In this document: positions 3,001 to 25,793 of the stretch, piece by piece
How positions within the stretch are numbered: the first letter of the stretch is position 1
Layout of the letters: each line of letters opens with the position of its first letter
Virus record (IMG/VR): IMGVR_UViG_3300023119_001752
Location: 1-25,793 of that record
Origin: a virus
Direction: 5' to 3' (one strand)
DNA: 25,793 nt
Made by a program: the position numbers and the translations under genes
The notes under the pieces: model-generated
What the model was told of the DNA's origin: nothing
What the model saw: only the letters and a program-made list of their open reading frames with translations
The model's database searches: none

Positions 3001-4547
3001 TCTATATAGATAACTTAACAGTACCAGGAAGTCCTACAGATGACCTAGCTGTGAATGTTGGTTACTTAAATACTAGATTAGACGCTCAAGACGAATTATC
3101 TGAATTAGATGATACAAGCATAAGTGTTAATCTTGCTGCTAATGATTTATTAATTTATAACGGTACTAATTGGGTAGATGGCACACTAGCAGGTGATATA
3201 TCAGTAAGTGTAACTGGAAATGATATCACAGCATCAATAAGTCCGGGCGTAATTGTAAATGCAGATGTATCAGGCACTGCAAATATAGACCCTAACAAAT
3301 TAGACTTAGCATCCTTCTTAGCAACTACTAGTGCAAAAGGCATTGCCCAGTTTGATTCTACAAACTTTGATGTTACAAATGGTGAAGTATCAATAAAACT
3401 GAATGGTATTTCGTTTGATGAATTACCAGATATAGCACAAGATACAGTATACGGTAGAACTGCTAGTGGAACTGGCGATCCTTCTGCTATTCCAGTGTCA
3501 ACTCTATTAAGTAACGCAAGTGTGTTGTTAGCAACAGATTTTGCATCTGACATTTCAAGCACTGCCGGCACAACTTTACTTACAAAAATAAATGCAAGTA
3601 CTTATGGAACTAGTCAGCTTACAAGTTCTACCCAAAATAATGCAGTAGTAAAAAGAACTGCAACTGGCGAAATCGATGCTACAGCTTACCAAATAGATGG
3701 TAACCAAATTCTTGATACTAGCGGCTCTGATACTATTGTTAAAACTCCAGGCGGCGGCGTACTTATTCAAGGTGAAGGCGCAAGTAACCCGGTATTAGAA
3801 ACAACAGGTGGAATTAAGGTAGGCGATATTGCAAATGTCAATAACAGCACATTCCAAGATGCTAGTAGCTACAGCACAAGTACAAGCAAACTAGCAGCTA
3901 CTTGGATTTACACAAACTTCTTAGAAGCTGCTACTGAGAAAGGCGCAAGCGGCACTGGTATTGGCTTAGGAACCGGCGGCGGCTTTGCTCAATCTGCTTC
4001 TGATGTGATTATCAACGTTACTAACGGTGTTGTTCGTACTGAAGTGAATGACTCAGGTTTAGAAGTTACAGGGTCATTAACAACTACTGCTATTACCACA
4101 GGCAATAGTAGCACAGCCGGTACTATTACAGGCAACTGGAGCTTAACAACTGGGTCAAGATTCGAAGCTACATATGCTGATATTGCAGAATACTACGAAG
4201 CTGACCATATATATGAGGTTGGTACTGTACTAGTATTCGGTGGCGAAAAAGAAGTTACAGGGTCAACTGAATACAAATCTACCCGAGTAGCAGGTGTAGT
4301 GTCTAACACAGCAGCGTTTACAATGAATCAAGACTGCGAAGGTAACGCTACTTGTGTTGCTCTTGTAGGACGTGTGCCTGTAAAAGTAATAGGCAAAGTA
4401 AACAAAGGCGATATGTTAGTTTCCAGCGCTGTTCCGGGATATGCGATTGTAGATAATGATCCGAAACTAGGCAGCGTTATAGGTAAAGCAATTAGCGAAA
4501 AACTAGATGACGACAAAGGTACTGTTGAAGTGCTGGTTGGAAAATAA
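1..4547 (+). CDS. Large tail fibre / beta-helix virion protein, 5' end missing
   Basis: The frame is open from base 3 with no stop, so the gene starts outside the window; the TTG at 84 is internal, because good coding sequence continues upstream of it. At least 1514 residues are visible. The N-terminal part (VESGTYEEDLPIKLP and IGDELRRT) resembles the start of a right-handed parallel beta-helix of the pectate-lyase type. Further helix-like stretches follow, for example the segment containing GGSVKVQNSAIRFGSFG. The middle is rich in Ser, Thr, Asn and Gly, as in trimeric fibres. The last ~140 residues (from FEATYADIAEYYEADH, with VAGVVS, GRVPVKV and VIGKA) form a compact domain common at the C-terminus of marine T4-like phage fibres; it recalls the Peptidase_G2 / intramolecular-chaperone type, but I cannot confirm cleavage. 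Role: virion surface protein, probably in tail or baseplate decoration and host contact (inference). T4 equivalent not assigned. Confidence 0.8.
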   Translation, partial: GEEVDFGYLTREKQVTIVVESGTYEEDLPIKLPINTSIIGDELRRTLVKPKPRTSQSEHTTVYFYRDDSIDGNTLTAGGAVLNDQSGNPKGKIGYHYLNDPTALKNIGAAVVNAGGFVTAANITLENKDYLIEETIHFLNTEHSSVTYDETIYRQNYSKLIDALVSDLETGNDKKSIEIQDLFVTETDPSTKIAIEAANDNIYLMLNLMFGTVSPEVQPVAPSGDIAGTYSNYLAGSATVTNIVDPNLSFGIAEDGTDTIVQNLIAKINFVFDGSYNAPKDNRNLDVFLLNDGSTIENITVQEHGGFVGVIDPDGQIITKSPVIANSSSISRSTNAKVFAGGIFIDGYAGNIPLSIIANSGTSSADTGSTPLSAFIIEVESAAGTGLRLRQPQVPSVFYVSGVRYQVNAFSNYDQGLGKAIFYIDAQSNSANGYNGSTPQDAYLQMGGSRSVIVDNFSQVNDLGYGIITANGAEANAVNTDATYTRAGFYADSGGSVKVQNSAIRFGSFGLVAEGSDPNVIPDDVTLLDTMVQPAKVNGTFTAASGTAVIEIYDLATPPKLGSILKIPTYPNASDSTNTNPETQNLEYKIRSVVDTGSTRAGTSGTVPVYSVTFTADENVTNNFFSTLQTDIVDNQIVELRDSTQFIFDNVADQNINTRPNTTLTFAESNDISYGLTNIDTSDNYGNALQSDELKLTFNDPFDYIELVPSIQYVTEAGSPSGTAGLTLGDTSLAIEPLTTSDEARIVGTVFVWAGRTHRITAYTNIPAVNPNYARIDFTEDGADISGIGGTGLADSINTESPGILYAGLKAASGAEIIEKTSIVRASNTSFDNVGKGSFNASNFPNSILGDPIETSESLSFTNSPSATNAEVWQKGKGKVFWSSSDQYGTFRVGKNFNIDQATGATTITGGIGIADATSLGFQSGTTVSEFSTDNSLSGRDSNVVPTEKAIAEYIDRRLGFDENGLTAGISLIGPGVLSLSGQSGESSTAMKNNLDMGSFYIDNLTVPGSPTDDLAVNVGYLNTRLDAQDELSELDDTSISVNLAANDLLIYNGTNWVDGTLAGDISVSVTGNDITASISPGVIVNADVSGTANIDPNKLDLASFLATTSAKGIAQFDSTNFDVTNGEVSIKLNGISFDELPDIAQDTVYGRTASGTGDPSAIPVSTLLSNASVLLATDFASDISSTAGTTLLTKINASTYGTSQLTSSTQNNAVVKRTATGEIDATAYQIDGNQILDTSGSDTIVKTPGGGVLIQGEGASNPVLETTGGIKVGDIANVNNSTFQDASSYSTSTSKLAATWIYTNFLEAATEKGASGTGIGLGTGGGFAQSASDVIINVTNGVVRTEVNDSGLEVTGSLTTTAITTGNSSTAGTITGNWSLTTGSRFEATYADIAEYYEADHIYEVGTVLVFGGEKEVTGSTEYKSTRVAGVVSNTAAFTMNQDCEGNATCVALVGRVPVKVIGKVNKGDMLVSSAVPGYAIVDNDPKLGSVIGKAISEKLDDDKGTVEVLVGK

Positions 4548-4548
4548 A

Positions 4549-4556
4549 ATAAATAC
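4549..4556 (+). promoter_or_regulatory. T4-like late promoter box ATAAATAC
   Basis: The octamer ATAAATAC lies just after the stop of the upstream fibre gene and ends 17 bases before the ATG of the next fibre gene. T4 late promoters carry TATAAATA at -10 and marine T4-like phages use a close variant. The same octamer at nearly the same distance precedes three other virion or late genes here. Transcription would start a few bases upstream of the AGAG ribosome-binding sequence. Confidence 0.6.
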
Positions 4557-4572
4557 ATAAAAGAGAAGCAGT

Positions 4573-6036
4573 ATGACCAATAGATATCCTTTAATAGTAG
4601 ACACATTTGATTCTAATAAAATTAAAGAACTACCTTCAGGTGATAATTTAAACTTGACAGGTAGTGACATTGTTGGAGTTGAAAATGTAACAGCATCAGG
4701 TGCAATTTCAGCTGGCAGTATTACTATTGATAGTATAACTATCAATGGCGCCGAAGTTCAATCAATTGCTACTTCAGGTGATTATAACGATTTAATCAAC
4801 AAACCTACAGGTTTAAGTGCTTTTACCAATGATGCAAATTTCATTACTACTGGGTCAAATATTAGTAGTCTTAACAATGACTCTAACTTTATATCTAGCG
4901 TAAATTGGCCACAAATTAATAACAAACCTACTACTATAGCAGGTTTTGGAATAGTAGATGCTCTCAGTGTAGGAGCAAACATAAGTACACTAGTCAATGA
5001 TAGCGGGTATTTAAAAGCAAGTGATCTACAAAATGGTGTGATTACAGTTGACGTTAACAATACCGGTGACCTTAAAGGTTCAGTTTTTGGTGACGACAGT
5101 ACGCCATTAGTAGACAGTGTGTTGAGTGCTATTAATCTTAATAACACTATTCGTGGTGATGTTATTCCTGTGCAAGATAGCCAATGGGATTTAGGCAGTT
5201 CGTCGCAAAAATTTGCAGATGCACATTTATCTGGTACTGTTACTGCTAATGCATTTGTAGGCGACGGCAGTGGATTAACTGGAATAACTAGCAGTGGTGT
5301 GTTACAAACTGCCGGTAATATAGGCTTAGGCTCTGTAGATTTAGCTGTAGACACTTTTACAGTTTTAGGAACAACAGGACAAATAAATGTAGAAGCATCT
5401 GCATTTGCACTAAGTTTTAGTTTAGCTCCAGTCATATCTAACGATTTAAAAGGAAGTGTATTTGCAGACGATTCAACACTGCTTGTAGATGGTGTAAATG
5501 GAAGTATTCCTGCAAGTGTTATAGATGGCACTATTGCGCAACCGCATACTAAGTTCATATTTACACAATCACAACCACCTAACACGCCTAATAGCGAATA
5601 TATAGGTAAAACTGTAGGCACATGGTACGAATGCACATTTGCAAATGCTGCTAACACATTTGGCTTATCGCCAGATAGTGCAGACCGGGACCCTACATTA
5701 ACTGGTATTACATTTAATGTAGATAGATTCTCAGGTTTTGAACAAAACAGTACATATGAATTTCATATTTCACCTGAATTATACGAAAGAACAACTACAG
5801 AAGGTATTAGAATACATGGTTGGAATGTAAGCACTGGTGCATTTAGCAGTATGAGTGTATATAGTCCCGGCACAGGTAGTTTTAATGTAAATGGACTAAG
5901 CTGTAACGATCATATTATTGTAACATTCGAAGATGCCGATCCTGCAAATAATTGGATTAGATACTCACTAGACAGTGACCAAGGTGCAAGTTACTGGATA
6001 GGTCAGGCAATTATGCATATAAAGAAAATAGGATAA
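4573..6036 (+). CDS. Tail fibre protein with repeat shaft and globular tip
   Basis: This 487-residue protein has the usual plan of a marine phage fibre. Residues ~70-150 hold shaft repeats of the YNDLINKPT / NNKPTTIAGFGIVDAL type. Two copies of a GSVFxDDSTxLVD module lie at residues ~166-187 and ~291-312. Between them is an SSSQKFADAHLSGTVTAN segment typical of fibres. The last ~150 residues (from about AQPHTKFIF) contain no repeats, are richer in aromatic residues (WYECTF, RIHGWNV, NNWIRY, YWIGQ), and look like a globular receptor-binding or trimerisation tip. The gene sits behind a late-promoter box and an AGAG ribosome site, and is followed 4 bases later by another fibre-like gene, so it is probably co-transcribed with it. 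Function as a host-recognition fibre is inferred from architecture; the receptor is unknown. Confidence 0.75.
   Translation: MTNRYPLIVDTFDSNKIKELPSGDNLNLTGSDIVGVENVTASGAISAGSITIDSITINGAEVQSIATSGDYNDLINKPTGLSAFTNDANFITTGSNISSLNNDSNFISSVNWPQINNKPTTIAGFGIVDALSVGANISTLVNDSGYLKASDLQNGVITVDVNNTGDLKGSVFGDDSTPLVDSVLSAINLNNTIRGDVIPVQDSQWDLGSSSQKFADAHLSGTVTANAFVGDGSGLTGITSSGVLQTAGNIGLGSVDLAVDTFTVLGTTGQINVEASAFALSFSLAPVISNDLKGSVFADDSTLLVDGVNGSIPASVIDGTIAQPHTKFIFTQSQPPNTPNSEYIGKTVGTWYECTFANAANTFGLSPDSADRDPTLTGITFNVDRFSGFEQNSTYEFHISPELYERTTTEGIRIHGWNVSTGAFSSMSVYSPGTGSFNVNGLSCNDHIIVTFEDADPANNWIRYSLDSDQGASYWIGQAIMHIKKIG
5068..5133 (+). repeat. Fibre module GSVFxDDSTxLVD, copy 1
   Basis: This 22-codon unit encodes DLKGSVFGDDSTPLVDSV followed by a short Ile-ended tail. 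It matches a second unit later in the same gene and two units in the fibre gene at the right edge of the window. It is a protein-level shaft module; codon choice differs between copies. Confidence 0.7.
5443..5508 (+). repeat. Fibre module GSVFxDDSTxLVD, copy 2
   Basis: This 22-codon unit encodes DLKGSVFADDSTLLVDGVNG and then Ser-Ile. It is the closest relative in this gene of the copy 310 bases downstream of copy 1's end, and of the units near the right edge. It precedes the globular C-terminal part of the fibre. Confidence 0.7.
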
Positions 6037-6040
6037 TATT

Positions 6041-6718
6041 ATGGCCATGCAAAATATTAATATAGGTAATGTAGCAAACGACGGCACTGGTGATAGTTTA
6101 CGAGAAGCTTTTGCTAAAGTAAATACCAACTTTACCGAGTTAGACAGCAGATTCGCTTTTACGAATACCGTCGAAAATTTAGGTAATGGTCAAGGATTAT
6201 TTTATACTAAAGAAAATAATGTTTTATATTTCAAATCTATCGTTGCTGGTGATAATATAACTTTAAGTGCTAGTAACAACGAAATAACTATTAGTAGCGC
6301 AGAAACGTTTACTATTCAAAGTGATACAGATAGTACCAATATTAGCGGTGTAAGCAAGTTTTTCGGTATAAAAGGATCATCGAACATTGATACAAACATA
6401 ACTAATAATGATGTGAATATATCAATTGATCCTAATGGTTTATTGGCTTTAGATCCAGCTCCAACTTTGAGTGCTGATTTAAATATTAATAACCATAACA
6501 TAACAAGTGCTAATACTGTGACAGCAACAACTTTTATAGGTAACCTTGTTGGCACAGTAAACGGGTTACCTGTTACAGACTATAGTTCAAACTTAGATTT
6601 AGGTGCTATGGTATCAAACATTACTTCAATAGGTGATTATATTATTGCTACTACGTCTATAGATTATGGTTCTTTTATAACTCCTGCTTCGATATCTAGT
6701 AACTTTGGTAGTATCTGA
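6041..6718 (+). CDS. Short fibre-like virion protein with N-terminal attachment motif
   Basis: This 225-residue protein begins with NINIGNVANDGTGDSLREAF and then KVNTNFTELDSR, a motif also found at the N-terminus of the fibre gene at 24974 and, in a looser form, of the gene at 9584. The shared motif suggests a common docking domain on the baseplate or on another fibre (inference). The remainder is beta-rich and low in charge, with a SADLNINNHNITSANTVTAT segment typical of fibre shafts (compare phage-fibre 'distal shaft' repeats). There is no obvious globular tip, and the protein ends in a short Ser/Ile-rich tail, so it may be an adaptor or a truncated fibre. It follows the previous fibre gene by 4 bases and has no promoter box of its own. 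Confidence 0.65.
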   Translation: MAMQNINIGNVANDGTGDSLREAFAKVNTNFTELDSRFAFTNTVENLGNGQGLFYTKENNVLYFKSIVAGDNITLSASNNEITISSAETFTIQSDTDSTNISGVSKFFGIKGSSNIDTNITNNDVNISIDPNGLLALDPAPTLSADLNINNHNITSANTVTATTFIGNLVGTVNGLPVTDYSSNLDLGAMVSNITSIGDYIIATTSIDYGSFITPASISSNFGSI

Positions 6719-15732: not shown

Positions 15733-16310
15733 AGTATAGAATTTTATTAGTCGCATTAGAAGCAGAGCTGCCTTACAAGCAAGCGCCTAAAAACTGTAAA
15801 GTTATCTACACAGGAGTAGGTAAAGTAAATGCTGCCTTCGCAGCTACTCAAGCAATAGCAGAAGCCCATTCATTAGGCTTCCATCCTGAAGTTTATAATT
15901 ATGGTACTGTAGGCACATGCAATCATGACTTGCAAGGACTACATCGCATTACAAAATTTGTTCAACGTGACATGAACGCAGAGCCCCAAGCGCCGCGAGG
16001 AGTAACACCGTTTGAAGCTGGTTTACCTTACTTAGATTTTTCATTGGATATGACTCATAGCTTAACTTTAGGCACTGGTGATCAATTTGTACATAAGCAA
16101 GAAACATGGTTAACTGATAATAATATAGATATTGTTGATATGGAAGCATATGCTATTGCAAGTATTTGTAAAAAAATGAATGTAAACTTTACTTGTTATA
16201 AGTATATTACAGATTATGTCGGTACACCGCATCAAGCAGATGTTTGGCAATCACGTATAGCAGACGGTGTTGATGAATTTTTGAAAGTTATGAATGACAT
16301 ACATAGTTAA
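15729..16310 (+). CDS. MTA/SAH nucleosidase-like (nucleoside phosphorylase family) protein
   Basis: The start is the ATG overlapping the thymidine kinase stop; the open frame continues upstream but only inside that gene. The 193-residue product ([18 protein letters not shown]) has the MTAN fold pattern: [14 protein letters not shown] near residues 25-39, [11 protein letters not shown] with Glu139 (ribose-binding ME), and YITDYVG with Asp162 at the position of the catalytic Asp of MTA/SAH nucleosidase. Bacterial MTAN is ~230 residues, so this form is shortened in the middle. It would cleave methylthioadenosine, S-adenosylhomocysteine or a related nucleoside to adenine and a sugar. That could relieve product inhibition of methyltransferases or feed purine salvage (inference). 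The end overlaps the ferredoxin gene by 17 bases. Confidence 0.75.
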
Positions 16311-16635
16311 CGATAATTGTATCCGTTGTAAGCATATGGACTGTGTAGAAGTATGTCCTGTTGACTGTTTTTACGAAGGTGAAAATATGCTAGTAATTAA
16401 TCCAGACGAATGCATTGACTGCGGCGTTTGTGAACCTGAATGTCCTGCTGATGCTATTCAAGCTGACTCTGCAGAAGGTGTCGAGCACTGGGTAGAATTT
16501 AATCAAAAGTGGAGTGAGCAGTGGCCTAACATCACTGTTATGCGTAAAGACGATGTGCCTGCAGATGCTGAACAATGGCATGGCGTTGAAGGTAAAATAA
16601 AATATTTTTCAGAACAACCAGGAAAAGGCGATTAA
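16294..16635 (+). CDS. fdxA: 7Fe ferredoxin (3Fe-4S/4Fe-4S), FdxA type
   Basis: This 113-residue protein is full length for the alphaproteobacterial FdxA family (about 112) and closely follows its sequence pattern. Cysteines lie at 9, 12, 17, 21, 25, 40, 43, 46 and 50. By analogy to Azotobacter ferredoxin I, Cys9, 17 and 50 would hold the 3Fe-4S cluster, and Cys21, 40, 43 and 46 the 4Fe-4S cluster; Cys12 and Cys25 would be free. The [16 protein letters not shown] linker is the family signature, and the C-terminal half contains the expected WPNIT segment. It is a soluble low-potential electron carrier. Phages more often carry plant-type 2Fe-2S ferredoxins. The gene overlaps the nucleosidase gene by 17 bases and shares TAATG with thyX. 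Its redox partner is not visible. Confidence 0.9.
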
Positions 16636-19572: not shown

Positions 19573-20055
19573 ATGTTCAAAGCACAATTAATTTTAATAC
19601 TAGTGATAGCACTTATACCCATAGGTATAGGCGGATACTGGTACGTAAATAGTTTACAACGGGCTTTGGAAATTTCAAGGGCTAATGAAGCAAAGTTACA
19701 GCAAGCCGTTGCTACAAACGAAGAAACAATAAAAGTTTTACAACGTGATTTTCAAGCAGCAACACAAGAATTACAAAAAGTAAATGATGAGTTTGCTGCT
19801 ATACGTAAACAAAATCAAAATTTAATAGGAAAACTAGAAAGGCACGATTTAGGTTTATTAGGCGAAGCAAAACCAGTATTAGTCGAACGTATTATTAATA
19901 GAGCAACTGATAAAGCTAATAGATGTATAGAGATTCTAAGTGGCGCTGATTTAACTGAAGATGAGTTAAATGCAGCAACGCCTAATGGTTTTAATAGTGA
20001 ATGTCCATGGCTATGGACCCCTCCTGTAACCGAAGGAGAGGAAACAAATGATTAA
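19573..20055 (+). CDS. Inner-membrane spanin (Rz-like) candidate
   Basis: This 160-residue protein has one N-terminal membrane segment at residues ~4-25 (AQLILILVIALIPIGIGG) and a long charged coiled-coil stretch at ~30-90 (ALEISRANEAKLQQAV, VLQRDFQAATQELQKVN), followed by a periplasmic C-terminal part. This is the standard i-spanin design, in which the coiled coil crosses the periplasm and joins an outer-membrane lipoprotein to fuse the two membranes at lysis. The C-terminal part has Cys117 and Cys144 and a Pro-rich end (CPWLWTPPVTEGEE). The next gene, which overlaps by 8 bases, encodes a lipoprotein; that arrangement strongly supports the spanin call. No sequence-level Rz family match is claimed. 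Confidence 0.75.
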   Translation: MFKAQLILILVIALIPIGIGGYWYVNSLQRALEISRANEAKLQQAVATNEETIKVLQRDFQAATQELQKVNDEFAAIRKQNQNLIGKLERHDLGLLGEAKPVLVERIINRATDKANRCIEILSGADLTEDELNAATPNGFNSECPWLWTPPVTEGEETND

Positions 20056-20416
20056 AAAAATTATTATATCTGCAATTGCTATTATTGCTTTAACTAGTTG
20101 TAGTTTACCAAATGTAACACCTGTTGAAGTTACAAGTGCACCTACAGAAAGACTAAAATTAACATTGCCAAACATCGATCCAGTTACACAAAAAGAAGTT
20201 AAATGGATTCTAATAACCGAAGAAAACTACGAGCAAGTATTTAATGATTTAAAAGAAACAGGTGAACCAGTAGTATTTTTTGCTCTTACTGATACAGGTT
20301 ATGCAAATATATCAATAAACTATCAAAATGCAAGACAAATTATTCAGCAACAGCAGGCTATTATAGCTGCATACGAAAATTATTATGTAAATGTAGACAA
20401 TTTAGAAGTTAAATAA
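20048..20416 (+). CDS. Outer-membrane lipoprotein spanin (Rz1-like) candidate
   Basis: This 122-residue protein starts with a lipoprotein signal (MIKKIIISAIAIIALTSCS): basic start, hydrophobic core, and lipobox Leu15-Thr16-Ser17-Cys18. Cys18 would be lipidated after signal peptidase II cleavage. The mature part is Thr/Pro-rich at first (LPNVTPVEVTSAPTERLK), with a globular-looking middle and a short helical end (ARQIIQQQQAIIAAYENYY). It overlaps the Rz-like gene by 8 bases, as expected for an i-spanin/o-spanin pair. It is longer than lambda Rz1 (60 residues), so it may have an extra domain. Confidence 0.75.
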   Translation: MIKKIIISAIAIIALTSCSLPNVTPVEVTSAPTERLKLTLPNIDPVTQKEVKWILITEENYEQVFNDLKETGEPVVFFALTDTGYANISINYQNARQIIQQQQAIIAAYENYYVNVDNLEVK

Positions 20417-20443
20417 CAATACACATATTAATGGGAGAGGGAT

Positions 20444-20785
20444 ATGGGTAAAACATTAGAAGCTAATTCTATCTATAATCAGTTTGATGAAGATGGTGAC
20501 GGAGTAGTAACTGACGAAGAAATGCGTAAGGCAGAGCGTATGATACAAATTGAAAATGATGATAAAAAACAAGATGCGCAACGTAATATGGCTTGGTTTG
20601 CACTAGGCGGTATGCTCCTGTATCCTTTTTCGATTATACTTACTAGTGCATTAGGCTTTGACACTGCTGGTCAACTATTAAAGGATATTGCTCCTACATA
20701 TTTTGTATCTGTTGCTGCTATTGTAGCTGCGTTCTATGCAAAAGAAGGTGTTGAAAACTTCGGTAAGAAAAAAGACTCTGAATAA
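20444..20785 (+). CDS. EF-hand membrane protein, holin candidate
   Basis: This 113-residue protein has a canonical EF-hand loop at residues 15-26 ([12 protein letters not shown], with Asp1, Asp3, Asp5, Gly6, Thr9 and Glu12 in their expected places). A charged helix follows, then two membrane segments: ~50-72 ([17 protein letters not shown]) and ~84-99 ([16 protein letters not shown]). The end is basic (FGKKKDSE). Two transmembrane helices, small size and adjacency to the spanin pair fit a class II holin, and similar EF-hand proteins are known in marine T4-like phages to my recollection. Calcium control of hole formation is my inference. A strong GGGAGAGGG ribosome site precedes it. No endolysin is recognised nearby. 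Alternative: an unrelated calcium-binding membrane protein. Confidence 0.6.
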
Positions 20786-20793
20786 GTATATGC

Positions 20794-21567
20794 ATGGACC
20801 ATTATGCAACATTAGGTATACATAAGTCAGCTTCAACTGATGATATCAAGGCTGCGTTTAAAAAACTAGCCTTGCAATATCATCCTGATAAAGGCGGCGA
20901 TAGTAAACATTTTGCGAAAATTACAGAAGCATATGATGTTTTAAGTAACGCTGACAAGAGACATGAATATGACAACCCAACAGATTTTAACTTTACAACA
21001 GATGATATTTTTAGTCAGTGGGTAAACAAACAACGCTACCATCGAAATCAAAATATAAAAATTACATATAGTATTGATTTCATAGACCAATTTACAGGAA
21101 AAACAACTAGTATAAGTTACAAATTACCTAACGGCAATACAAAAGAGGTAGTAATTAAAATACCTAAAGGCATAACACACGGCCAGCAATTAACATTTTC
21201 AAAACTAGGCGACGATACAAATCCCTATATTAAGCCAGGCTCTTTAATACTAGATATAAAAGTAAAAAATGATACAAACTGGTCAAGGGACGGAAATGAC
21301 ATAAGAACTAGTATAGATATCAACGTGTTTGATTTAATTCTAGGCACAACTATTCACGTAAATTTACCAACTGAACAAAAATTTAAATTAAATATTAAGC
21401 CAGGAACAAAGCCAAATACTGTACTAAATATACCAGAATATGGAGTACCTCATTTGAGCACAGGATTGTCAGGCAATGTTCTTATAAAACTCAACGCCGT
21501 TATACCAGAAATAACCGATAACCAAATCCTTAATCAAATTGAAAAAATTCGAGACACAATAGGATGA
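20794..21567 (+). CDS. DnaJ-like J-domain co-chaperone
   Basis: This 257-residue protein has a full J domain at residues ~1-65 ([20 protein letters not shown]), with the HPD motif at 30-32 in YHPDKGGD, which stimulates DnaK ATPase. It lacks the zinc-finger repeats (CxxCxGxG), so it is a type II (CbpA-like) J protein. Residues ~86-257 resemble the DnaJ C-terminal substrate-binding domains: [70 protein letters not shown]. The Gly/Phe linker is very short. It would recruit host DnaK to phage or host substrates. It is followed by a hairpin and then a Clp unfoldase gene, which together suggest a chaperone group. No strong ribosome site is seen before the ATG. Confidence 0.85.
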
Positions 21568-21635: not shown

Positions 21636-23846
21636 ATGATTAACACTACTGAAGAAGTACAATTAGCTTTTGATAAAGCGCTACGTGATGCAAATAAGCT
21701 TAAGCATGAATATATAACGCTTGAACATTTGGCTTTTGCAATGTTATGCGTAGAAGAATTTTCAAAATCAATTGAAAATATTGGTATAAATGTTGACGAA
21801 TGCAAAACAAATCTAGAAAACTATCTAGTTAACGAATGCGAAGATATTGTTGTTGAATCAATAGCAAAAGTAAAGCGTACTCGAGCTGTGGAAAGAGTAA
21901 TGCAACGTTCGTTTGCCCAGTCTTTGTTTTCTGCTAGAGATAAAGTAGGATTGTCAGATATTCTTCTTAGTTTACTTCACGAAAAAAATTGTTTTGCTGT
22001 ATATTTTTTACTGCAATCAGGTATTACTAAAGAAAAAATTGCGGAACATCTGTTTGGTGACTTACTTGACGGAGAATTTAATTTCGACGGTAGTGCTTTA
22101 GAAAAATACGCAGATAATTTAACTGAACTTGCAAAAGAAAACAAAATTGATCCAGTAATTGGTCGAAGCGAAGAGCTAGAAAGTATTTCGTTAGCATTAG
22201 GTAGAAGAACAAAAAATAATGTACTATTAGTAGGTGATCCAGGAGTAGGTAAAACAGCTATTGCAGAAGGCTTGGCACATAAAATAAACAATAAAGAAGT
22301 GCCAGAGTTTTTGTATGATTACGAAGTGTATAGTCTACGTATTCCATCTTTGCTTGCAGGCACAAGATACCGTGGTGAATTCGAAGAGCGTATGGAGCAT
22401 CTTTTAGAAGAATTAGATCAAAAAGAAAAACTAGTTCTTTACATTGACGAGGCTCATATGATTAACGGTGCTGGTGCAGGTAACAGTGAAAACCCAAATG
22501 ATCTTGCAAATATTTTAAAACCAGCACTCGCTAAAGGTAAAATTAAAATTATTGCAAGTACAACATGGGAAGAGTATAGAAAGTATTTTGAGAAAGATTC
22601 TGCGCTTATGCGGAGATTCCAGCGCTTAACGGTTGACGAACCAGACGAGTCAACAACCTATGATATATTGCTAGGAATTAAAAAATACTATGAAGACTTT
22701 CATCAAGTAAAAATTAGAAAAACTGCACTTCAAACTGCAATTAAACTTACAGTGAAATATCAACAAAATAAAAAGTTGCCCGATAAAGCTATTGATATTT
22801 TAGATCAAGCATGTGCTAGATTTAAGTTATCTGAGACTTATGAAAAGAAACTAGTACGGCCAGCTAATATAGAATTTGAAATGGCAAAAATTATGAAAAT
22901 GCCATTAGAAACTGTTCAAGAAAAAGAAACAGACACTCTTGCTAATCTAGAATCAAACATTAAAACTAAAGTTTACGGTCAAGATTCTGCCGTAGAAACT
23001 ATCGTAGATAGAATTTGCGTAGCAAGAGCTGGATTAAAAGCCAAAAATAAACCCATCGGTAGCTTTGTATTTATGGGTCCAACTGGTACTGGTAAAACTG
23101 AAACTGCTAAACAATTGTCAGAAAATTTAGGCGTTCCGCTTATTAGATTTGATATGAGCGAATTTCAAGAATCTCATAGTGTGTCTAAACTTATCGGATC
23201 ACCTCCGGGCTATGTTGGTTATAATGAAGGCAGTGGCAAGCTTATAAACAAACTAGAAGAAAATCCTAACTGTGTTTTGCTTTTAGATGAAATCGAAAAA
23301 GCGCATCCTGATGTATCACAAATTCTTCTACAAATTATGGATAACGGAAAGGTTACCGGAAGTAACGGTAAAGAAGTTGATGTATCAAATTGTGTCTTAA
23401 TCCTTACAACAAACTTAGGTGCAGTTGATACTGAAAAAAATACTATAGGCTTTGGTGATCCAAAAAACAAAGTTTACAAAAAAGATGCTTTTAAGAAATA
23501 CTTCCAGCCTGAATTTAGAAATAGGATTGACAAAGTAATAGTATTTAACTATCTTGAAAAACCTGTTATTAAAAATATTGTAGATAAATTTATTACAGAA
23601 GTCAAATCTTTTGTTGAATCTAAAAGCATTAATATAGTTGTAGACGACTCGGCAATTGAATACCTAATTGATAATGGATACGATAGAGAAATGGGAGCAC
23701 GTCCTTTAAGTCGGGTAATTGACGAAAAAATTAAAACACCGCTTAGTAAACAAATGTTATTTGGTAAACTAAAAAATGGCGGCACTGTGTATGTTTCTGC
23801 ATTAGAAGATATAAGATTAGAATTCGAGGCAGCAAATGCTTTATAA
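21636..23846 (+). CDS. ClpA-like double AAA+ unfoldase
   Basis: This 736-residue protein has the layout of ClpA (758 in E. coli): two ClpN repeats at residues ~1-140, D1 with Walker A GDPGVGKT at 200-207 and Walker B IDEAH with Asp271-Glu272, and D2 with Walker A GPTGTGKT at 481-488 and Walker B LLLDEIEKAH with Asp551-Glu552. The pore segment GSPPGYVGYNEGSG, the PEFRNRID motif and GARPLSR at the C-terminus are also present. There is no long middle coiled coil, so it is not a ClpB/Hsp104 disaggregase. At residues 604-606 an IGF tripeptide replaces the IGL of ClpA, at the position of the ClpP-docking loop. It may unfold proteins and hand them to host ClpP. No ClpP or ClpS is in the window. The end overlaps the next gene by 11 bases. 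Confidence 0.9.
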   Translation: MINTTEEVQLAFDKALRDANKLKHEYITLEHLAFAMLCVEEFSKSIENIGINVDECKTNLENYLVNECEDIVVESIAKVKRTRAVERVMQRSFAQSLFSARDKVGLSDILLSLLHEKNCFAVYFLLQSGITKEKIAEHLFGDLLDGEFNFDGSALEKYADNLTELAKENKIDPVIGRSEELESISLALGRRTKNNVLLVGDPGVGKTAIAEGLAHKINNKEVPEFLYDYEVYSLRIPSLLAGTRYRGEFEERMEHLLEELDQKEKLVLYIDEAHMINGAGAGNSENPNDLANILKPALAKGKIKIIASTTWEEYRKYFEKDSALMRRFQRLTVDEPDESTTYDILLGIKKYYEDFHQVKIRKTALQTAIKLTVKYQQNKKLPDKAIDILDQACARFKLSETYEKKLVRPANIEFEMAKIMKMPLETVQEKETDTLANLESNIKTKVYGQDSAVETIVDRICVARAGLKAKNKPIGSFVFMGPTGTGKTETAKQLSENLGVPLIRFDMSEFQESHSVSKLIGSPPGYVGYNEGSGKLINKLEENPNCVLLLDEIEKAHPDVSQILLQIMDNGKVTGSNGKEVDVSNCVLILTTNLGAVDTEKNTIGFGDPKNKVYKKDAFKKYFQPEFRNRIDKVIVFNYLEKPVIKNIVDKFITEVKSFVESKSINIVVDDSAIEYLIDNGYDREMGARPLSRVIDEKIKTPLSKQMLFGKLKNGGTVYVSALEDIRLEFEAANAL

Positions 23847-24537
23847 AGATTCCTTCAAACTTTTTTACAATAAATTTACATATAAGCTAGAAATAATTAC
23901 ACCAGCAGCTTTTCTTTTTAGAAACAAAGATTTGCAAACTGTAAAAAATACAATTGACGAGTTTTTAAACAACAAATTTCTTTTAGACCGTGAAGATTTA
24001 GAAGAATGGCCTAGCGAGCTTTCTTATTCTTCTAAATACTTTTATCGCAGGTTCCGCCCTTCAGAAGACGATATATTACAATGTCAAAAGTTACATAATT
24101 ATTTAAGCACTATTGACATTGATGCTAAAGTAAGAGTAGAAATAAATAATCTTTCAATTTATTCTAATCAACACCAAGATTTAATTAATCTAGGTGAAAA
24201 ATTAAATTGTAAATGGAAAACTTTTTATCGTCCTAATAAAAAAATAGCTGGCAATTTAAAACCTAATACAATTTATCATAGTTTTGCTGACAAATACAAA
24301 TACAAAGTAACAATAGGCAGAGTGTATGACGAGTCGTTAGGTTCATTTATGGAGACAAATAACAATAATTTTGTAAAATTAGGTCCAAGTTGTTTAGATG
24401 CAATAAAAAATAAAAAATGCGGTACATATAATAGCTATTATTTTTATGTAAGGGATGACAAAATTTTAAACATGATTTCTATGTTTGGATTTGAAATAAA
24501 ACGTATAGAGGAACTACTTCCTAAATCAGATAAATAA
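23836..24537 (+). CDS. Hypothetical protein of unknown function
   Basis: This 233-residue protein overlaps the clp-like gene by 11 bases and is very rich in Lys, Tyr, Phe and Asn. It starts MLYKDSFKLFYNKFTYKLEI and contains paired segments with similar feel (KFTYKLEIITPAAFLFRNK near the start, KYKYKVTIGRVYDESLGSF later), so it may have two related halves. No membrane segment, catalytic motif or cysteine cluster is seen. No family is recognised; replication-accessory or nucleic-acid-binding roles cannot be told apart. The stop lies 4 bases from the next virion gene. Confidence 0.6.
   Translation: MLYKDSFKLFYNKFTYKLEIITPAAFLFRNKDLQTVKNTIDEFLNNKFLLDREDLEEWPSELSYSSKYFYRRFRPSEDDILQCQKLHNYLSTIDIDAKVRVEINNLSIYSNQHQDLINLGEKLNCKWKTFYRPNKKIAGNLKPNTIYHSFADKYKYKVTIGRVYDESLGSFMETNNNNFVKLGPSCLDAIKNKKCGTYNSYYFYVRDDKILNMISMFGFEIKRIEELLPKSDK
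24530..24537 (+). promoter_or_regulatory. Weak late-promoter-like box ATAAATAA
   Basis: ATAAATAA covers the end of the preceding gene and ends only 4 bases before the ATG at 24542, giving almost no leader. It differs in one base and in spacing from the other boxes. Listed because it precedes the second virion block, but it may serve as coding sequence only. Confidence 0.25.
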
Positions 24538-24973: not shown

Positions 24974-25793
24974 ATGGCGCAGAAGAATATTAACTTAGGC
25001 TCAGCAGACTACGCAGGCGACGGTGAAAATATACGTTCTGCATTTGCAAAAATTCAAGATAACTTTACAGAAAACTATACAAGTATAACAAGTATAAACG
25101 GCAACATTGTTACAATTAATAACGATGTATCTGCACTACAAACAACAACATCAGGTCATACACAGGACATTACTAATTTACAAACACAGGTAACTGCACT
25201 TGGCGGTGGCTCTGGTGGCAGTATTGATGCAGATTTAAACGGTAGTGTATTTGGTGATGATAGCACATTACTTATAGATGGAACTAATTCAACAATTATT
25301 GCAGATGTATTAACTGGAGCACTTCCCGCAATAGACGGTAGCCAACTTTTAAGTGTTAATGCACAATTTTTAGACTCTCAGCCAGGAGCATTTTATTTAG
25401 ATTATAACAATCTTGTCAATACACCTGCTGTAAGTGCTTTACCAGAGGGTTCTACTCATTCAATTGATATTGTTGCTAGTGATAGCACATTACTTGTTGA
25501 CAGTGTAAATGGCACACTAAACGCAACTGCACTTACAGGTGCTTTACCAGCAATAGATGGTAGTGCGTTGACTGGTATTACAACCACAGAAACAGATCCA
25601 GTAGTAGGTGCTATTACAGGAATTGTAAAAGCCGATGGTGCAGGTAATATATCAGCGGCAGTGGCTGGAACTGATTATCTTACAACAGTAGCATTTGCTG
25701 ACTTAACATTAACACCGACTACAATAGCAGGTTATGGTATTACTGATGCATTTGATGGTGACTATAACAATTTAACAAATCAGCAACAGTTCC
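24974..25793 (+). CDS. Tail fibre protein, 3' end beyond the window
   Basis: The frame opens at ATG 24974 (after an AAGGATAG ribosome sequence) and runs without a stop to the right edge, so at least 273 residues belong to a longer gene. It begins AQKNINLGSADYAGDGENIR and SAFAKIQDNFTE, the same N-terminal motif as in the gene at 6041. A short coiled-coil segment follows (TQDITNLQTQVTAL), then a Gly-rich hinge and two copies of the GSVFxDDSTLLID/VASDSTLLVDSVNG module. The end has the TTIAGYGITDAF and YNNLTN shaft repeats, similar to those of the fibre at 4573. It is a virion fibre with a modular shaft; tip and function are outside the window. Confidence 0.75.
   Translation, partial: MAQKNINLGSADYAGDGENIRSAFAKIQDNFTENYTSITSINGNIVTINNDVSALQTTTSGHTQDITNLQTQVTALGGGSGGSIDADLNGSVFGDDSTLLIDGTNSTIIADVLTGALPAIDGSQLLSVNAQFLDSQPGAFYLDYNNLVNTPAVSALPEGSTHSIDIVASDSTLLVDSVNGTLNATALTGALPAIDGSALTGITTTETDPVVGAITGIVKADGAGNISAAVAGTDYLTTVAFADLTLTPTTIAGYGITDAFDGDYNNLTNQQQF
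25232..25297 (+). repeat. Fibre module GSVFxDDSTxLVD, copy 3
   Basis: This 22-codon unit encodes DLNGSVFGDDSTLLIDGTNS then Thr-Ile. It is the equivalent of the two units in the fibre gene about 20 kb upstream, with different codon use, which supports exchange or duplication of modules at the protein level. Confidence 0.7.
25466..25519 (+). repeat. Fibre module, diverged copy 4
   Basis: This 18-codon unit encodes DIVASDSTLLVDSVNGTL and retains the DSTLLVDxVNG core of the other copies, but not the KGSVF opening. It is followed by an ALTGALPAIDGSALTGIT stretch that repeats the LTGALPAIDGSQLLSV segment after copy 3. Confidence 0.65.

Follow-up and report, generated by a model that had tools for sequence, protein, structure and literature searches.

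An EF-hand, two-helix membrane protein family of marine phages: a plausible holin with possible calcium control

The window, that is, the whole stretch of 25,793 nucleotides (25.8 kb) analysed here, is a viral record whose source is a T4-like marine phage, and its gene content includes ThyX, PhoH, thymidine kinase, an AAA+ clamp-loader-like protein, DnaJ and ClpA-like genes. Three consecutive genes on the plus strand (19573-20785) had been predicted to encode an Rz-like inner spanin, a lipoprotein outer spanin that overlaps it and a protein combining a complete EF-hand loop with two transmembrane (TM) segments, and all three open reading frames were found at these positions. The first (19573-20055, plus strand) encodes a 160-aa Rz-type inner-membrane spanin (i-spanin; phrog_739, E 7.9e-11; phrog_89, E 7.8e-5), with an N-terminal TM segment at residues 1-19 (KD 2.38) followed by a coiled coil; a genome search with phrog_739 also matches it at 6e-13. 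The second (20048-20416, plus strand) encodes a 122-aa Rz1-like outer-membrane lipoprotein spanin (o-spanin; phrog_812 'Rz-like spanin', E 2.1e-6), which starts 8 nt inside the i-spanin reading frame in the +1 frame and carries a signal anchor with the lipobox LTSC. The N-terminal TM segment and coiled coil, the lipoprotein partner, the gene overlap and the PHROG matches thus identify a two-component Rz/Rz1 spanin, as originally predicted.

The third gene (20444-20785, plus strand), hereafter the EF gene, encodes a 113-aa protein that is a holin candidate. Its purine-rich ribosome-binding sequence, GGGAGAGGG, was read from the sequence at 20433-20441 (plus strand) and ends 2 nt 5' of the ATG. 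The protein contains a canonical 12-residue EF-hand loop at residues 15-26 (20486-20521) and, by hydropathy, TM1 at about residues 52-70 (20597-20653) and TM2 at about residues 78-96 (20675-20731, hydropathy window; the most conserved segment), all encoded on the plus strand. Loop conservation, the family profile and hydropathy all bear out this composition.

An endolysin was sought with four families, one of them lacking a positive control, in the window and in the contigs of its closest relatives, and none was found. The T4 late-promoter motif TATAAATA occurs once in the window, at a distant site, against 5.6 occurrences expected. On the 3' side of the EF gene lie a DnaJ-type chaperone (20794-21567; J domain and DnaJ_C) and, directly after it, a ClpA-like ATPase (21636-23846; phrog_4871, E 3e-245), and the arrangement of an EF gene adjoining DnaJ with an i-spanin close by recurs in loci L010-L016 and L042. 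Elsewhere in the window, the phage encodes a ferredoxin (4Fe-4S domains and DUF3470) at 16294-16635, and two structural-type proteins (6041-6718 and 24974-25792) have in common an N-terminal motif of ~33 residues (52% identity, E 1e-8), after which they diverge.

By sequence similarity, the 113-aa protein is a member of a large, unnamed family in phages. Members are common among phages from sea water: a single IMG/VR scan returned 383 relatives. A tblastn search of 50,697 phage genomes found relatives in 12 records. These phages include T4-like marine phages, such as HTVC008M (SAR11) and Melnitz (OM43), roseophages, methylophages and one freshwater Limnohabitans phage. At least 173 unique members, taken from the matches listed, were analysed, and 50 diverse members were aligned for column conservation and for comparison with Pfam and PHROGs. 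The family is apparently phage-specific. The only match in a genome_contigs scan, which reaches close relatives only, was a T4-like phage fragment inside a MAG, and we therefore rejected the idea of a recently captured host gene. The family phrog_27150 (function unassigned) matches 20 of the 50 members, with a best E of 9.2e-12, and the window protein has no match to it at E 0.05. Judged from these profile matches, phrog_27150 appears to be an existing catalogue entry for part of the family.

The loop of the window protein conforms to the EF-hand pattern of Asp at position 1, an acidic residue or Asn at 3 and 5, Gly at 6, a hydrophobic residue at 8 and Glu at 12. The only invariant columns in the 50-member alignment are D15, G20 and E26, i.e. 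loop positions 1, 6 and 12. Because the search pattern fixed D1 and G6, the informative figure is the number of members with a canonical loop, which is 171 of 173 unique members among the matches listed; position 12 is always Glu, though the pattern permitted Asp. Codons at the invariant sites vary, with 118 GAT and 53 GAC at position 1, all four Gly codons at position 6, and 127 GAA and 44 GAG at position 12. Values of dN/dS from a counting method, about 0.07 (EF region) and about 0.012 (TM2), are rough since synonymous sites are near saturation. As far as sequence comparison can tell, the EF loop is under strong purifying selection. Searched against the PDB, the family profile matched calcium-binding EF-hand proteins (E 4e-10 to 4e-8), while the window sequence alone scores under the Pfam EF-hand cut-off (19.2 vs 25.4 bits). 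A chance EF-like motif is ruled out by the invariant positions, the codon variation, the PDB profile matches and the near-universal presence of the loop. A scan with the membrane part alone controls for a search artefact behind the loop conservation; the loop was present in 68 of 70 unique proteins among the matches listed. The two exceptions are L206, which is cut by a contig end, and L233 (match 4443-4637), a natural loss in which the TM hairpin is kept and which would represent a natural Ca2+-blind variant.

Two TM windows occur in 172 of 173 members among the matches listed. Lys and Arg residues average 3.4 before TM1, 0.8 in the loop between the TM segments and 2.8 after TM2; this scarcity in the loop and abundance outside the TM pair predict that both termini are cytoplasmic (N-in/C-in) and that the EF-hand faces the cytoplasm. 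Hydropathy and charge thus describe what is expected of the holin class, a small protein with TM helices in a topology that fits a membrane hole. The AlphaFold2 model (pLDDT 75, pTM only 0.47) places residues 24-70 in one helix that spans the EF exit helix and TM1, with moderate confidence at the join (block means 65-79), and residues 83-112 in the second helix of the hairpin. On this model, the exit helix of the EF-hand would be continuous with TM1. Fold comparison with solved structures gave no match, and comparison with BFVD gave one unnamed viral protein (E 1.7e-4).

In cultured non-T4 phages, the EF gene lies inside or beside the lysis cassette. Of the Roseobacter phages CRP-1 and CRP-9, CRP-1 has the order EF, endolysin (phrog_465, E 7e-53) and u-spanin with 1-nt overlaps, and CRP-9 has the same order; CRP-345 has EF, spanin and endolysin; DC31 has EF, an Rz-like spanin and an L-Ala-D-Glu peptidase; and CRP-810 has EF, GTA_holin_3TM (E 2.5e-20) and GH108, where the EF gene overlaps GTA_holin_3TM by 4 nt. 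The label 'u-spanin' reflects a lipoprotein signal and a C-terminal TM segment, and spanin similarity is weak in CRP-9 and CRP-345, so it should be read as putative. The neighbouring lysis enzymes are unrelated to one another, comprising M15-type endolysins (CRP-1, CRP-9 and CRP-345), an L-Ala-D-Glu peptidase, GH108 and, on contigs, SleB hydrolases. The CRP-1 endolysin has neither a TM segment nor a signal, and its release should therefore require a holin. A scan of 66 annotated CDS of CRP-1 found two small two-TM proteins, the EF protein and the u-spanin, of which only the u-spanin has a lipobox.

Across the family as a whole, a recognised lysis gene, of several enzyme classes, lies at most four genes away in 29 of the 173 members listed, and about 83% have none so near. 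The commonest context, with 51 of the 173 listed (about 30%), is between the T4-type gp51 and the tape-measure gene. The original prediction had taken adjacency as an argument for a lysis role and named homologues far from any spanin or lysis gene as evidence to the contrary. The argument holds to the extent that lysis neighbours recur with unrelated enzymes, and it is partly undercut by the commonest context: around none of these 51 members, HTVC008M and Melnitz among them, do the nearest three genes include a recognised lysis gene. An alternative reading is that the protein is a non-lysis late membrane protein, acting in superinfection exclusion or as a small virion-linked component, whose adjacency to lysis genes reflects shared late transcription. 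The gp51/tape-measure position fits this reading, as does the lack of an EF-gene insertion at that site in three cyanophages examined, and so do other contexts of the EF gene with glycosyltransferases, SNase and curli-type genes. However, unrelated endolysin types recur beside the EF gene, and in CRP-1 the EF gene overlaps the endolysin gene, which suggests co-translation. Further, T4-type phages scatter their lysis genes, and distance from these genes is therefore weak evidence against a lysis role.

The proximity of i-spanins also stands against a non-lysis role. On family-bearing contigs of at least 50 kb searched with phrog_739, 13 lineages have an i-spanin, and in 5 of these it is no more than 2.1 kb from the EF gene, against 0.63 expected (p 0.00025, at a threshold chosen after the distances were known; thresholds of 5 and 7 kb give p 0.0018 and 0.00013). 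Some of the near lineages have a spanin, EF and DnaJ synteny in common, and they are therefore not fully independent. We rely on this test instead of a first neighbour-enrichment estimate (lysis genes at 4.1% of positions 1-3 genes away vs 1.5% at 5-12), which was biased because its lysis seeds had been taken from genes near the family. Taking both sides together, we consider a non-lysis role unlikely.

Several other proteins recur near the EF gene. A protein with an N-terminal TM segment and a long coiled coil was seen in 26 loci (e.g. L020 3329-3817 and L002 3292-3873). In CRP-207 this protein, gp73, lies beside the EF gene as a 'putative lysozyme', which is probably a misannotation; neither Pfam nor PHROGs shows an enzyme domain in it, and it was rejected as lysis evidence. 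A protein of 150-160 aa with one C-terminal TM segment (phrog_32327, function unassigned) was found in 18 loci (e.g. L212 4354-4836, L009 3227-3688 and L003 3517-3999) and is a possible lysis partner. In loci L017-L041, the neighbours of the EF gene include an SNase-type nuclease, a single-TM protein of 75-80 aa and secreted proteins in which a resemblance to curli (Csg) components was noted by eye.

The recurrence of single-TM partner families beside the EF gene is also what an antiholin or co-holin might show, i.e. a sensor of Ca2+ or membrane state that would act on another holin by binding it, so as to delay or synchronise lysis, and would form no hole of its own. CRP-810, where the EF gene overlaps and precedes a recognised holin (GTA_holin_3TM) and a GH108 endolysin, suits such a regulator, and in L157 and L158 a second small membrane protein (phrog_10198) lies 3' of the EF gene. 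CRP-1, however, offers no other small, multi-TM, lipobox-free protein to regulate, and the contiguous cassettes of CRP-9 and CRP-345 consist only of the EF protein, an endolysin and a spanin. A purely regulatory role is, in our estimate, improbable. The antiholin or co-holin and the non-lysis readings carry most weight for the T4-like members. Other small membrane proteins could act as holins in the same genomes, according to TM scans based on annotated CDS for CRP-1 and CRP-207 and, for Melnitz, on longest-ORF calling, which can hide real genes such as CRP-1 gp36. These include single-TM proteins in CRP-1 and a further two-TM protein in CRP-207 (23764-24180). In Melnitz (L248), an 87-aa two-TM protein with no family match (38719-38982) lies two genes after the GH108 enzyme and is another holin candidate by its predicted topology.

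A holin with two TM segments and a cytoplasmic EF-hand is the best single explanation of the EF protein, since it accounts for the protein's size, its topology, the coupling of its gene and a weak resemblance to holin superfamily III, and we lean slightly towards a holin role for the 113-aa protein. This reading is plausible, but not general across the family. More specifically, our preferred reading is a class-II-like holin with both termini in the cytoplasm and a cytoplasmic calcium switch, the odds of which we regard as evenly balanced. Such a switch is proposed from the position of the EF-hand, its conservation and its modelled helix continuity with TM1; hole formation, Ca2+ binding and Ca2+ triggering are all putative. 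Cytosolic Ca2+ is normally low, sea water contains about 10 mM, and single EF-hands commonly dimerise. Late in infection, the holin candidate would build up harmlessly in the inner membrane until the first leaks or a loss of membrane potential admitted Ca2+ to the cytosol; injection by a superinfecting phage might be an alternative route of entry. The EF-hands would then bind the entering Ca2+ and pair between subunits, and the paired EF-hands would draw the TM hairpins into rafts, upon which the membrane would collapse, the endolysin would be released and the neighbouring spanin pair would fuse the membranes. Calcium control of lysis is possible, if on the unlikely side, and we doubt that, in many marine phages, a built-in ion sensor sets off cooperative hole formation. 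We give little credence to a holin in which the EF-hand serves as a structural clamp, permanently occupied by Ca2+ or Mg2+, holding dimers together and sensing nothing: the strict E12 and invariant G6 fit a sensor or a structural site alike, but the EF-hand is predicted on the cytoplasmic side, where free Ca2+ is low, which makes permanent Ca2+ loading less likely.

The EF protein may be the hole-forming protein so far missing from the last step of infection, and calcium might control it. If it is a holin, lysis of very abundant marine bacteria would have a candidate trigger open to testing in E. coli, and lysis timing would gain Ca2+ as a new input. The literature searched on EF-hand and holin, which covered few subscription journals, consisted of endolysin and general phage papers, and no EF-hand holin is described in the titles and abstracts listed.

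Class II holins, of the phage 21 S pinholin type, have two TM segments in an N-in/C-in topology. The EF protein resembles them in its small size, two TM segments, short predicted outer loop and charged cytoplasmic ends, and in several phages its gene adjoins endolysin and spanin genes; a difference is the EF-hand, ~30 residues long, that precedes TM1. No named holin is matched by the window protein above a curated threshold. PF07332 (Phage_holin_3_6, holin superfamily III) has matches at E 0.05 or better in 27 of the 50 members (best E 1.6e-5). The match of the window protein covers the TM hairpin, the PF07332 model omitting the EF-hand; its score of 16.0 bits falls short of the curated 28.4 bits, and the protein is for this reason kept out of PF07332. 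For Melnitz and pelagimyophages, the curli pore CsgGF has been suggested as a pinholin analogue, in a paper that mentions neither a holin nor an EF-hand (PMC9004378); similarly, a survey of pelagimyophages mentions neither holins nor EF-hands (PMC7029224). CsgGF and the EF protein address the same gap, as no holin gene is mentioned for these phages (PMC9004378). They differ in place, in that CsgGF is described as an outer-membrane pore (PMC9004378), whereas the EF protein, from a gene elsewhere in that genome, is predicted to form a hairpin in the inner membrane.
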